From an uncultured bacterium (lineage in GTDB: Bacteria > Bacillota > Clostridia > Lachnospirales > Lachnospiraceae): a DNA stretch of 64,000 nt. Positions 628-13,457 of this stretch are shown piece by piece (position 1 is the first letter of the stretch; every line of letters starts with the position of its first letter). Where the stretch lies: contig CANRVD010000005.1 in NCBI GenBank assembly GCA_947643145.1, positions 1 to 64,000 of the forward strand. Reading direction: 5' to 3'. Below the pieces are notes generated by a model that saw only the letters and a program-made list of their open reading frames with translations, had not been told where the DNA came from and searched no databases. The position numbers and the translations under genes were made by a program.

Positions 628-2232
628 ATGTGGAATATGTTATTACCAACGGTTTTGCGTATGAGCCTTACAGGAAGTGTTGTAATACTGGTTGTTCTGT
701 TTGCAAGAGTGCTTTTGCGCCGGGCACCCAAGATTTTCAGCTATTTATTATGGGGTGTGGTACTGTTGCGTCTGCTGTGCCCCGTATCATTTTCAGCGCA
801 GTTGTCATTACTGCAGTTTGTTGAAGTTCCAATGGAAGAAGGGCAAATTGATTATGGTATACAGAATTTTGCGCATCATCAAAATACAGAACTGGCAGTA
901 TCAGCAGGCGAAACAGCCAAGCAGGTTTCAAAAACGACAGTTAGCGAAAAGTCCAATTCAGATAGTTCTTTTACAACTTTTACAACTGTGGGAACTGTGC
1001 TCTGGTTTATTGGAGCAGCAGCTATAGTTACATATGGCATCATATCGCTGATACGGCTCCGCAGACAGTTAATAGGGGCGGTACAGTTAAAAGATAATAT
1101 TTATCTGACGGATTATGTTTCATCTGCTTTTGTTCTGGGGATATGGAAGCCGAGAGTTTATCTGCCTGCAATGCTCTCTGATTCGGAGCAGGAGTATATC
1201 ATTTTGCATGAGCAGGTACATATCCGCCGCAAGGATTATCTGAGCAAAATACTGGCATTTACAGCACTTGCTATTCACTGGTTTAATCCGCTTGTTTGGC
1301 TTGCTTTTCGGTTATCGGAGAAAGACATGGAAATGTCTTGTGATGAGGCGGTTATGAAAAAGATGAACCGTGATATACGTGCAGAATATTCTGCTTCTTT
1401 GTTAAAACTTGCAGCAGGCAGAAGAATCTTATCAGGAACTCTGCCTGCATTTGGAGAAGGGGAGACTGGAAGCCGGATTAAACATATATTGCGTTATAAA
1501 AAACCAACAATAGCAGGGGTATTAGTGGCAACGGTTATTTTAGCTTCAACTGTAGTTCTGGCAGGAAGTAATCCCAAAGTACAGGACACTGACAGTAAGA
1601 ATCAGGACAGTACATCTTCTTCTGTAACCGCTTCACAAAACACAGCATTGGATAATAATACTTCTGATAAAGAAGCTTCTTCCAAAGACAGTCCAGATAA
1701 AAATTCTTCTGCAAAAAATGATTCTGAACAGAGTGGGACTGTTGAGAATCCATATGCCAACTCTGTTTCTGCTGTTGAATGTAAACCTGGTGAAACATGG
1801 GAACAGTCTATTGGCGTGAATGAAGATTTTGTACATACCATGGAGTGTGCGTTCCTTAGGTTCATGACAGAGGATACACTGGAAGTGGACCCTATAGAAT
1901 ATATAGATCAGGATACAGACCCCCAGCGGCTGAAGGAGCTTGGAATTACGAAGGAATATCTTAATCGTATGGACGGTTATGAATTTAATAATCCAGATGA
2001 GGATACAATACTGTGGAGAATTGATGAAAATACAGAGTTTATTTTTGCTGACTGGGGACGGGATTTTATTATAGAAGAGATACCTTGTAACAGTATCATG
2101 GTTAAAACAAAGGACAGGGAATTATTCCGAAGTTATCTGGCTACATATAAAAATTCAAAGCCTGGAATGCCGTTTTTCTTTGAAGTTGAGGATGGTGTAG
2201 TAAAGCGTCTTGTAGAAAAATTGTTTGCCTGA
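628..2232 (+). CDS. blaR1: BlaR1/MecR1-type M56 family metallopeptidase sensor
   Basis: Multi-TM N-terminus, HEQVHIRRKDYLSK zinc-site motif (HExxH), SEKDMEMSCDEAV; extracytoplasmic C-terminal domain is not an obvious penicillin-binding domain. Confidence 0.85.
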   Translation: MWNMLLPTVLRMSLTGSVVILVVLFARVLLRRAPKIFSYLLWGVVLLRLLCPVSFSAQLSLLQFVEVPMEEGQIDYGIQNFAHHQNTELAVSAGETAKQVSKTTVSEKSNSDSSFTTFTTVGTVLWFIGAAAIVTYGIISLIRLRRQLIGAVQLKDNIYLTDYVSSAFVLGIWKPRVYLPAMLSDSEQEYIILHEQVHIRRKDYLSKILAFTALAIHWFNPLVWLAFRLSEKDMEMSCDEAVMKKMNRDIRAEYSASLLKLAAGRRILSGTLPAFGEGETGSRIKHILRYKKPTIAGVLVATVILASTVVLAGSNPKVQDTDSKNQDSTSSSVTASQNTALDNNTSDKEASSKDSPDKNSSAKNDSEQSGTVENPYANSVSAVECKPGETWEQSIGVNEDFVHTMECAFLRFMTEDTLEVDPIEYIDQDTDPQRLKELGITKEYLNRMDGYEFNNPDEDTILWRIDENTEFIFADWGRDFIIEEIPCNSIMVKTKDRELFRSYLATYKNSKPGMPFFFEVEDGVVKRLVEKLFA

Positions 2233-2354
2233 ATTTATTCGGCTGTGAGCAGTAACCTGAATAGTCACTGGGGATTCCTTTACAAACAAAAAGAAGTTGA
2301 CAAGAATTTCATAGTTATGCTAGTATAATAAAAAATTTAAGGAGAACATACAAA

Positions 2355-2417
2355 ATGAACCAAAACTTACATTCAAGACGTTATATGTATATGTATTATA
2401 GACATATTTGTTTATAA
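2355..2417 (+). CDS. Candidate 20-aa leader peptide MNQNLHSRRYMYMYYRHICL
   Basis: AAGGAGAAC RBS 8-10 nt upstream of ATG 2355, upstream promoter-like TTGACA (2297), followed by multiple complementary segments and a terminator-like hairpin. Confidence 0.45.
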   Translation: MNQNLHSRRYMYMYYRHICL

Positions 2418-2560
2418 CTGGGTATGGGAAATGCACAGTTATAAGCTGGTAGGTCTTATATGCCTGTGCATAAATGAGAATGTAGGTTTATACATATCAA
2501 TTATATCTTACATTGAGAAATGGAAATCATGATTTATGCAATTTCCGTTATCATGAATTA

Positions 2561-2600
2561 GCGCACTGGGCATATAAACGTCTGGTGCGCTTTTTATTTT
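2561..2600 (+). terminator. Terminator/attenuator-like hairpin GCGCAC...GTGCGC-TTTTTATTTT
   Basis: GCGCAC 2561-2566 pairs with GTGCGC 2585-2590, followed by a T tract. Confidence 0.6.
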
Positions 2601-2655: not shown

Positions 2656-2754
2656 GTAGAAAGGAGACATAATGAAACAGAAATTTCCAGATTACAACAA
2701 TTAGGGCTGACGCAGGATGAGATGGAGGTTCCATTGATTATAGTGTGAAGCAGT

Positions 2755-2785
2755 AATGAAAAACGCGTAGACAGCGTTTTTCATT
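2755..2785. repeat. Perfect 12-bp inverted repeat AATGAAAAACGC-N7-GCGTTTTTCATT
   Basis: Arms at 2755-2766 and 2774-2785 are exact reverse complements. Confidence 0.85.
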
Positions 2786-2860
2786 AAGCGAACTTAATTC
2801 GCTTTGCAAATATTGTGCTTGCGCCTGGATTCGTGGGTCAGGCAAGAATGGGAGATTGGC

Positions 2861-4402: not shown

Positions 4403-5300
4403 ACGCATTTCAAAAGATTTTGAAAAAGCACTTTCCCTTCCATTAAATTTACAGACAAAGTATATTATTTTTAGCGACTGCCACCGTGGAACCGGCAGGG
4501 CCAATGACAATTTTACGCAAAATGAGGTTCTTTATCTGGCAGCACTCAGGCATTATTATCAATGTGGTTTTGTTTATTTGGAGCTTGGTGACGGGGATGA
4601 ACTTTGGGAGAACCGTTCTATGAAAAAGATAAAAGAAATACACGGCCATAGTTTTGAAATGCTTGCAAAATTTTATCAGAAGAACCGTTTTTTTGCCGTA
4701 TATGGAAATCATGATATGGTAAAAAAGCAAAAGGCATTTCAAAAGAAATTTTTTGATATGTATGATAGTGACAGTTTTTTATGTGAAAACTCGCTCTGTC
4801 CTGGTATTTGCTTTTATTCGGGAATTATTCTTCAGGATGCGCTCCATGTAAAAGATATTTATCTGACGCATGGGCATCAGGTTAGTATTATGAATAGTAC
4901 ACTTTGGAAAATAAATCGGTTTTTGGTGCGGTATGTATGGAAAAATCTGGAGCTTTTTGGTGTGCCGGACCCTACCAGTGCGGCGAAGAACCATACAAAA
5001 AAGAGGGAGGCAGAGAAGCTTTTTACAGAATGGGCAAAGGAGAATAACAATATTCTGATTACCGGGCATACGCATCATCCGATGGTTGGCTCCAGTGAAT
5101 CACCATATTTTAATACAGGGAGCTGTATTCACCCTGTTGCCATTACAGGGATTGAGATAGAGAACCGATGTATTTCGTTGGTAAAATGGTCATTGGGAAC
5201 GAAAAAGGACCAGTCTGTTTATGTGAAAAGGGAAATACTGGGAGAAACCATCTGCCTTGATGAATATAACAGGACAAATGCACGAGTGAAAATTCTGTGA
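4362..5300 (+). CDS. Calcineurin-like metallophosphoesterase
   Basis: FSDCHRGTG, GDGDELW, YGNHD, LTHGHQ, ITGHTHHP metallophosphatase motifs; C-terminal codons lie in an inserted repeat. Confidence 0.85.
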   Translation: MERKRGCVCVSCHKRISKDFEKALSLPLNLQTKYIIFSDCHRGTGRANDNFTQNEVLYLAALRHYYQCGFVYLELGDGDELWENRSMKKIKEIHGHSFEMLAKFYQKNRFFAVYGNHDMVKKQKAFQKKFFDMYDSDSFLCENSLCPGICFYSGIILQDALHVKDIYLTHGHQVSIMNSTLWKINRFLVRYVWKNLELFGVPDPTSAAKNHTKKREAEKLFTEWAKENNNILITGHTHHPMVGSSESPYFNTGSCIHPVAITGIEIENRCISLVKWSLGTKKDQSVYVKREILGETICLDEYNRTNARVKIL

Positions 5301-5899
5301 ACAAATCATGAGTTAGCATAATTTTAATTGTCTGTCTTCAGGGGATTTTGAGTAGTTTTTGCCCATAACTGCATACTAACTCATATGCCGTAGGATTCTT
5401 TATCCTTTTTCGTATTACATTTGACTTTGGTGAAGATGTTTGTTTTGTCAGTTTCGATGAATATGCGCCTCGTAGTTTGTCTGAAGCGGCTGCGTTATTT
5501 CGTATTGCTCCCTCTTAGGGCCGCTCCCGCTACATGATGCACATAGTGGTGCGTAATATCCCTGGTACATTATAATATTTTAGAATAACAGGTAAACAGA
5601 TGGAAGGAAATAATGTACCATACGGGATATAAGCACCAACGGCATCATAGTGCCCCAGAGAGGGAGCAATGCGAAATAACGCATTGCTGCAAGTTTACGA
5701 AGAGGCGCATAAATCAAACATCGAAACTGTAAAACATTACATCTTCACAAAGGCACAATGTCACGAAAAGATAAAGAATCCTACGGTATATGAGTTTTAT
5801 AAAATAACGGGCAAAAACTATCATAATGCTGAAAGACAGGCATCAACTATTTATTAAATCATGATTTGTTCACAGAATTTTCACTTATGCGTTTGTCCT
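5271..5899. mobile_element. Fold-back/MITE-like element, ~630 bp imperfect palindrome with flanking 11-bp direct repeats
   Basis: Left end AGGACAAATGCACGAGTGAAAATTCTGTGAACAAATCATGA; right end reverse complement AGGACAAACGCATAAGTGAAAATTCTGTGAACAAATCATGA; GATGAATATAA at 5259-5269 and 5900-5910; central arms ATATCCC-TG-GTACATTAT / ATAATGTACC-ATAC-GGGATAT. Confidence 0.8.
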
Positions 5900-5969
5900 G
5901 ATGAATATAAAAGATAAGGTTGCAAAGTGCTTGACGACTATGCTATAATGCAAATTAGCGTTATTTTTT

Positions 5970-12806: not shown

Positions 12807-12893
12807 TCAGAAAGTTCTCAATGTATTACGGGATATCAACAAGAATACTAAAGCATTTTTGTAGCGCACCAGTGAAGTCGGTGCGCTTTTTTA
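12807..12893 (+). repeat. TATAGGAAA-family modular hairpin repeat, tandem copy 1
   Basis: AAAGTTCTCAATGTATTACGGGATATCAACAAGAATAC-TAAA-GCATTTTTGTAGCGCACC-AGTGAAGT-CGGTGCGCTTTTTT. Confidence 0.85.
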
Positions 12894-12894
12894 A

Positions 12895-12985
12895 CTTATA
12901 GGAAAGTTCTCCATGTGTAACGGGATGTCAACAAAAATGCTTTAGCATTTTTGCTAGCGCACCAGCGAAGTCGGTGCGCTTTTTT
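12895..12985 (+). repeat. TATAGGAAA-family modular hairpin repeat, tandem copy 2
   Basis: TTATAGGAAAGTTCTCCATGTGTAACGGGATGTCAACAAAAATGC-TTTA-GCATTTTTGCTAGCGCACC-AGCGAAGT-CGGTGCGCTTTTTT. Confidence 0.9.
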
Positions 12986-13457
12986 AGTCTCTGTCCCAAA
13001 TTTCCATACTGATATAATAATTATGAATATTGCGGGAAGTGATGGCAGTTGCCGCAATTCTGCTAATCAAATAGATTAGAAGCAAAAAGCCTGGTGCCGG
13101 ATTTAAGAATACAATATCTAACGGTTTTGTATTAATATATGCCTGCCATACGACCAACGCAAAAATAATATAATAACTTAGCTGCTTTTCAGCAGTAAAT
13201 TTTTCCGGGGTATAAAAATATTTTTTGGCACAGGAGGCAAGAAGAGTCTTTGGAAATTTTTTCTTTTCAGCAAGTATATTGGCAATAATCCACGGATAAA
13301 GCAAAAGCAATGCAAAAAAGTAAAAAGAAAATGGGCGTAAAACAACCAAAAGGAAAAAAAGGCATACCATTAATATAATTCTGGAAATAAGCAAGCCTGT
13401 GTAGCGGCTGATATTTCTTTGTTCTTTGTAAATCTGTGCATTCTGCTGTTTCTGCAT
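12984..13457 (-). CDS. Hypothetical membrane protein
   Basis: Start at MQKQQNAQIYKEQ (13457) after GAAATGAGG; several TM segments; stop codon overlaps the repeat T tract. Confidence 0.65.
   Translation of the reverse strand: MQKQQNAQIYKEQRNISRYTGLLISRIILMVCLFFLLVVLRPFSFYFFALLLLYPWIIANILAEKKKFPKTLLASCAKKYFYTPEKFTAEKQLSYYIIFALVVWQAYINTKPLDIVFLNPAPGFLLLIYLISRIAATAITSRNIHNYYISMEIWDRD

Follow-up and report, generated by a model that had tools for sequence, protein, structure and literature searches.

The locus examined here raises the question of why a short open reading frame (ORF) and a transcription terminator, arranged like a resistance-gene attenuator, should stand in front of no such gene. 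A first-pass annotation of the window (the whole 64,000-nt stretch analysed, contig C5 of draft genome G000) had proposed either an orphaned short-ORF attenuator beside a short gene remnant or a standalone antibiotic-responsive sRNA. The evidence below indicates that the element, which lies between a BlaI/BlaR1-M56 gene pair and a C_GCAxxG_C_C gene, is very probably a leader-peptide transcription attenuator that has kept an intact switch and lost most of its phosphodiesterase gene. Its parts are as follows.

151-2232: BlaI/BlaR1-M56 gene pair, upstream of the attenuator
2297-2326, plus strand: promoter read from the sequence, with TTGACA at 2297-2302, an 18-nt spacer and an extended -10 element TAGTAT at 2321-2326
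2339-2344, plus strand: Shine-Dalgarno AAGGAG of the leader ORF, read from the sequence and conserved in column alignment A3
2355-2417, plus strand: leader ORF MNQNLHSRRYMYMYYRHICL (ATG to TAA, 20 codons), the sensor, whose codons double as segment 1 of the switch
2364-2374, plus strand: 5' arm of helix P1, AACTTACATTC, Asn-Leu-His codons; partner 2478-2488; compensatory changes
2384-2390, plus strand: 5' arm of helix P2, Tyr-Met-Tyr codons; partner GTGCATA at 2466-2472 in the antiterminator segment
2399-2408, plus strand: 5' arm of helix P3, Tyr-Arg codons, TAGAC.TAT; partner 2448-2457 (GGTAGGTCTT region)
2412-2420, plus strand: 5' arm of helix P4, last codon, stop codon and next bases; partner CAGTTATAA at 2436-2444
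2456-2469, plus strand: segment 2, the antiterminator arm TTATATGCCTGTGC; partner GCACTGGGCATATAA at 2563-2577 (terminator 5' arm and loop)
2478-2488, plus strand: 3' arm of helix P1, GAATGTAGGTT (RNAalifold and pair counts)
2561-2595, plus strand: intrinsic terminator GCGCAC...GTGCGC (2561-2590) with a TTTTT U-run, segments 3 and 4
From about 2861: C_GCAxxG_C_C gene, downstream of the attenuator

Promoter, Shine-Dalgarno sequence, 20-codon ORF and terminator all lie where the first-pass annotation had placed them, and the TTGACA...TAGTAT arrangement recurs upstream of three related copies (L009, L098 and L101). A scan found one terminator in this region against 0.3 expected, and the RNA from 2320 to 2610 folds to -85.5 kcal/mol, compared to -53.0 +/- 4.2 kcal/mol for dinucleotide shuffles (z = -7.8; 0 of 200 shuffles as stable).

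The element belongs to a family of leader-peptide attenuators, of which 56 distinct copies were recovered after merging, all in Lachnospiraceae-type genomes. Searched at the DNA level, 99 relatives yielded three sequences clearly homologous over the leader (L009-L011); weaker matches (L012-L030, E about 1e-5 to 0.01), when read or judged by length, were rejected as chance similarities around AT-rich Shine-Dalgarno/ATG stretches or terminators. The degenerate peptide pattern YMYMYYR[R/H], searched in one genome per bacterial or archaeal species, returned 42 matches, 41 of which carried the same leader and RNA and came from Lachnospiraceae or Eubacteriales; the remaining match, in an archaeal record, had no such leader and was attributed to chance. 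A covariance model (R1) built from 29 copies matched 5 of 28 genomes of the genus and 21 of 397 of the family, counts that are lower bounds since the searches dropped weak candidates, and in an order-wide sample its matches fell in this same family only. The model also matches the minus strand of the window at 2363-2495 (45 bits), a consequence of the near self-complementarity of the leader hairpin. Neither IMG/VR viral contigs (leader pattern) nor plasmids and phages (blastn) held a copy, and the window's own genome has no second one. Rfam, at gathering and relaxed thresholds, yielded only a snoRNA match attributable to chance and scoring far under the threshold of that model, and NCBIfam matched none of the leader peptides. 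One relative differs in structure: the leader ORF of L097 (about 1370-1512, reverse strand) is seemingly interrupted by some 130-150 bp whose end reads ...GAGTGGATTGAAAC, with a TnpB-like ORF just downstream, as though an IS200/IS605-type element had inserted into the leader.

Within the family the leader is open in 48 distinct copies, at about 18-22 codons, and the terminator hairpin was recovered in 50, being absent only from two degenerate copies among those with enough sequence. The 20-codon ORF is thus conserved in relatives, and compensatory changes support both alternative sets of pairings. Run on 33 copies, RNAalifold together with pair counts found 97.5% of cells paired over P1, P2, P3 and the terminator, with 9 pairs changed on both sides; sliding one side as a control lowered pairing to 23-45%. 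The P1 pairing, which the first-pass annotation had drawn between CTTACATTC (2366) and GAATGTAGG (2478), is real and carries compensatory changes at 3 of its 9 pairs (family-wide, the Asn-Leu-His codons pair with GAATGTAAG). Three further helices, the more important ones, had gone unnoticed: P2 and P3, which join Tyr-Met-Tyr and Tyr-Arg-Arg codons to the antiterminator segment, and P4. P2 is paired in 98.7% of cells, P3 (family-wide, the Tyr-Arg-Arg codons with GTAGGTCT) has two pairs changed on both sides, and in the family P4 is formed between the region of the stop codon and CACAGTTA. When the arms of P1 or P4 were exchanged between divergent copies, they paired less well than in the native combinations (P = 5e-5 each, the floor of 20,000 permutations in a kind of test that relatedness inflates, though only divergent representatives entered).

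Segment 2 has a competing partner in the terminator itself, which supplies the 3' half of the antiterminator from its 5' arm and loop. The duplex between 2456-2469 and 2563-2577 has a free energy of -19.6 kcal/mol in the window, and across 23 divergent copies native duplexes averaged -16.5 kcal/mol compared to -14.5 kcal/mol for swapped ones (P = 5e-5, subject to the same inflation). The pairing between TTATATGCC and GGCATATAA seen at first reading is this conserved antiterminator, and compensation is visible in it: ATGCC:GGCAT in the window becomes TTGTC:GACAA in L009 and GTGTC:GACAC in L096 and L102, and the L038 group has another solution, AGTCTA with TGGAC. The fixed-column antiterminator count on alignment A3 is weak because that group is shifted by one base there. 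Segment 2 has a further alternative in the window, CTGTGCAT (2464-2471) with ATGCACAG (2431-2438). The first-pass pairings TGCATAAAT:ATTTATGCA and that of CTTACATT (2507) are particular to the window copy, because relatives mostly lack the stretch at about 2500-2555, which adds some 35-50 bases between P1 and the terminator. The suggested ORF-to-loop pairing AGACGTTATATG:CATATAAACGTCT did not hold up, only its TATATG core being kept in relatives.

The antiterminator and anti-antiterminator pairings are mutually exclusive, both are kept by compensation, and segment 1 lies inside the sensor ORF. The pairings therefore define segment 1 as the sensor codons, segment 2 as the antiterminator arm and segments 3 and 4 as the terminator, giving a choice between 1:2 with 3:4 and 2:3. 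The consequence of ribosome position was calculated with the RNA folded as far as the terminator loop, taken as the moment of decision, and with a ribosome masking up to 16 nt past its P site. At that stage, with the 3' arm of the terminator still to be made, the expected number of antiterminator pairs in the window RNA rises from 0.1 when the leader is free to 13.1-13.8 when a ribosome sits on its Tyr or first Arg codons. Across 48 copies the antiterminator formed in 46-47 with the ribosome on those codons, compared to 17 with a free leader. At full equilibrium, once the whole terminator is available to fold, it prevails in the window, as in several copies, despite the ribosome mask, and the decision must therefore be kinetic, taken during transcription.

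We propose the following course of events. RNA polymerase would begin near 2333, and a ribosome would translate the 20-codon leader behind it. After normal translation and release, the codons of segment 1 would form P1-P4 with the RNA that follows and so lock segment 2 (2456-2469); the terminator would then fold from segments 3 and 4, and transcription would end near 2595. A ribosome lingering on the Tyr and Arg codons would instead cover segment 1, leaving segment 2 to pair with segment 3 and allowing read-through into a downstream gene.

In the trp, his and phe operon leaders, the same 1:2 and 3:4 versus 2:3 logic operates, with sensor codons in segment 1. Classic amino-acid attenuators use codon runs of the kind seen here, and a slow Tyr-rich YMYMYY run could report a lack of charged tRNA-Tyr (or tRNA-Met), as the presence of Tyr at four of the six codons in most copies might suggest. 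However, divergent copies that precede GNAT or other genes have few or no Tyr codons (none in L093, MNQRLHSTTHMSIHHRRICL, or L102, MKHNLHSRRDMDMDLRRIRL), and no copy is followed by a gene for Tyr or Met biosynthesis or transport or for a tRNA synthetase. A Tyr-tRNA sensor is thus disfavoured, and we consider amino-acid sensing unlikely. The entropy of the leader by codon position is similar at all three positions (9.2/8.6/10.1), giving few hints that the peptide itself is selected beyond what the RNA requires, and therefore RNA pairing may account for much of the conservation of the leader.

Among the 49 distinct copies with at least 600 nt behind them, a regulated gene follows in 43: the first gene encodes a GNAT acetyltransferase (single or double domain by Pfam) in 41, a phosphorylase-superfamily (nucleoside-phosphorylase-like) protein in one (L055) and a type I phosphodiesterase in one (L056). 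The other six, the window included, have something else or nothing downstream; exceptions to the pattern include L102 (DUF1287), L095 (a partial ABC transporter) and L112 (a degenerate leader before a subtilase), and the DNA downstream of L052 and L089 looks like an insertion sequence. Frequent second genes encode phosphorylase-like, OTCase-like (carbamoyltransferase-like), metallo-beta-lactamase-fold (metallo-hydrolase) or phosphodiesterase proteins. The predicted structure of the double GNAT reached a pLDDT of 58, a profile search of PDB sequences matched it only to PaiA over the N-terminal domain (E 8e-8), and PADLOC gave no convincing defence match. The BlaI/BlaR1-M56 pair (151-2232) and the C_GCAxxG_C_C gene were considered as partners of the window element and set aside, the downstream genes of other copies being different. 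In a genome of the same genus (G023), locus L107 (about 1205-1420) has a related phosphodiesterase behind a different candidate leader ORF, MNRFAVRYSYSMDHAMHCVNVYGFNCVCKYMDCQDE, which matches nothing in NCBIfam and is followed by a strong terminator-like hairpin ending in TTTTT; this candidate attenuator is unrelated to the window family, and suggests that the phosphodiesterase gene has been placed under attenuators more than once.

Short-ORF attenuators of similar design precede resistance genes, and the first-pass annotation had expected a lost ABC-F, Erm or efflux gene induced by macrolides, lincosamides or tetracyclines. The architecture does resemble that of bmrB (PMC4191407), tlrB (PMC6851288) and cplR (PMC10201436), and L095 precedes a partial ABC transporter, the sole exception of this kind. 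Yet the search for intact versions before such genes, while it recovered intact, conserved copies, found mostly GNATs with their associated enzymes behind them and an ABC-F or Erm gene behind none of the 49; the remnant in the window is that of a phosphodiesterase, and the window peptide lacks the R/K-X-R/K macrolide arrest motif (as described in PMC6851288). A switch for a lost gene of this class is, on these grounds, most improbable.

The differences from these systems are also evident in detail. In the bmrB-bmrCD leader of Bacillus subtilis, attenuation is relieved when 50S inhibitors slow ribosomes on the leader (PMC4191407); it shares with the present family a leader ORF, an intrinsic terminator and an alternative anti-terminator, but its leader has 53 codons and a multidrug ABC transporter follows (PMC4191407), whereas the family has an 18-22-codon leader whose own codons pair with the antiterminator and mostly GNAT enzymes behind it. 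The B. subtilis tlrB (yxjB) leader is likewise short, with arginines near its C terminus and a terminator; however, its 9 codons stall at RYR ahead of a 23S rRNA methyltransferase gene (PMC6851288), and the window leader has no R-X-R. The cplR, vmlR and lsaA uORFs of ARE ABC-F genes show the same combination of uORF, terminator and induced read-through in Firmicutes, but these uORFs have only 3-4 codons (MRI, MIN, MAGN) and precede ABC-F genes (PMC10201436), and they share no leader sequence with the present family. The literature searched, mostly outside subscription journals, did not contain the peptide motif, nor was the family described in the attenuator papers found by keyword. The family and its gene set thus appear undescribed, with a mechanism of a known kind (bmrB, tlrB, cplR and msrD leaders). 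The trp, his and phe leaders differ in turn: the window family has no biosynthetic gene, and Tyr codons are not kept in its divergent copies.

What the window copy once controlled can be read from the DNA between its terminator and the next gene.

2661-2666, plus strand: Shine-Dalgarno AAGGAG of the lost gene, read from the sequence
2672-2701, plus strand: start remnant of the phosphodiesterase, ATGAAACAGAAATTTCCAGATTACAACAAT (MKQKFPDYNN, 10 codons)
2702-2704, plus strand: out-of-frame TAG directly after the start remnant
2704-2748, plus strand: 3'-end remnant of the phosphodiesterase, GLTQDEMEVPLIIV*, last 14 codons, in another frame
2754-2786, plus strand: perfect 13-bp inverted repeat with a T-rich 3' arm, right after the remnant's stop, probably the end-of-operon terminator

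The short remnant seen at first reading is therefore two ends of one type I phosphodiesterase gene. L056 and L032 have the same leader and terminator, followed by the TATAGGAAA motif and by a phosphodiesterase that starts with MKMKQKFPDYSN; the start remnant occupies the same position as this intact start and is nearly identical to it in DNA. The 3' remnant is identical at 9 of 16 residues to residues 349-364 of a full-length homologue (L037:2109-3206, PF01663, C-terminus GLTADEMTIPLIVI), with whose protein the start remnant also aligns. Each remnant match by itself is weak (E 0.04-0.16), and the reading is firm because of their order, their position and the DNA identity to L056. The gene has lost about 1 kb (about 340 codons) from its middle, and the attenuator is orphaned. 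A Shine-Dalgarno and short ORF (2339-2417) and a terminator between leader and gene (2561-2595) place the element in the attenuator class, and, only two phosphodiesterase ends following it, the window copy is classed as a decayed member.

The assembly is a draft of 153 contigs and 84% complete, so that genes not found in it may belong to the unassembled portion, and the deletion itself may be polymorphic or an error of assembly. However, the contig (90.8 kb) continues on both sides, the two remnants are collinear, the terminator-like hairpin downstream of them is present, and no intact phosphodiesterase or fragment of one, nor a double-GNAT gene of the family type, occurs elsewhere in this 84%-complete assembly. 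We regard a gene still intact in the cell and broken only in the assembly as quite unlikely. It is a little less credible still that, after loss of the gene, the terminated transcript of ~260 nt (about 2333-2595) serves as a trans-acting sRNA, or that the leader peptide acts by itself. All pairings in the window are intact, as if something still selected for them, and trans-acting leader peptides are known (peTrpL; PMC7298713); a recent deletion accounts equally well for this intactness, and the genome holds no second target and no other copy.

Three other repeats were observed in the window. The TATAGGAAA repeat that the first-pass annotation had remarked on behind the attenuator is a motif recurring after terminators in this genome: as TTTTT-N4-TTATAGGAAA it is found, apparently after terminators, at 12887, 23979, 40544, 60877 and other positions, and the TATAGGAAA/TTTTT-N4-TTATAGGAAA motif has 19 loose matches in the window against 7.8 expected, a number that 0 of 100 shuffles reached. 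A motif resembling it is also present behind the attenuator terminator of L056 and behind a gene terminator in L002; the latter, in the same genome as the window, is merely a similar gene terminator followed by TTAGGAAA and not a second copy of the attenuator. At 12810-12986 a tandem duplication (1.9 copies of 92 bp) doubles a terminator-like GCGCACC...GGTGCGC-TTTTTT, and at 5270-5900 a nested imperfect inverted repeat of ~630 bp, with outer arms of 46 nt (91% complementary) and five inner arm pairs, resembles a large hairpin-type miniature element.

We infer that stalling on the leader is the signal, that a translation inhibitor is its cause and that the enzymes behind the switch detoxify this inhibitor; the element may respond to antibiotics. 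The acetyltransferases behind most copies fit the inactivation of a ribosome inhibitor. Tentatively, and with somewhat less than even confidence, we suggest that the element marks an inducible detoxification regulon of gut Lachnospiraceae, in which a natural translation inhibitor would be inactivated by GNATs together with a second, interchangeable enzyme (nucleoside-phosphorylase-like, carbamoyltransferase-like, phosphodiesterase or metallo-hydrolase). The family adds to common gut bacteria an apparently undescribed attenuator whose leader peptide and RNA switch are both conserved, and ties a ribosome-sensing switch to acetyltransferases. A screen of translation inhibitors for read-through might identify what induces the switch and what these enzymes act on, and the window copy shows how a regulator can outlast its gene.
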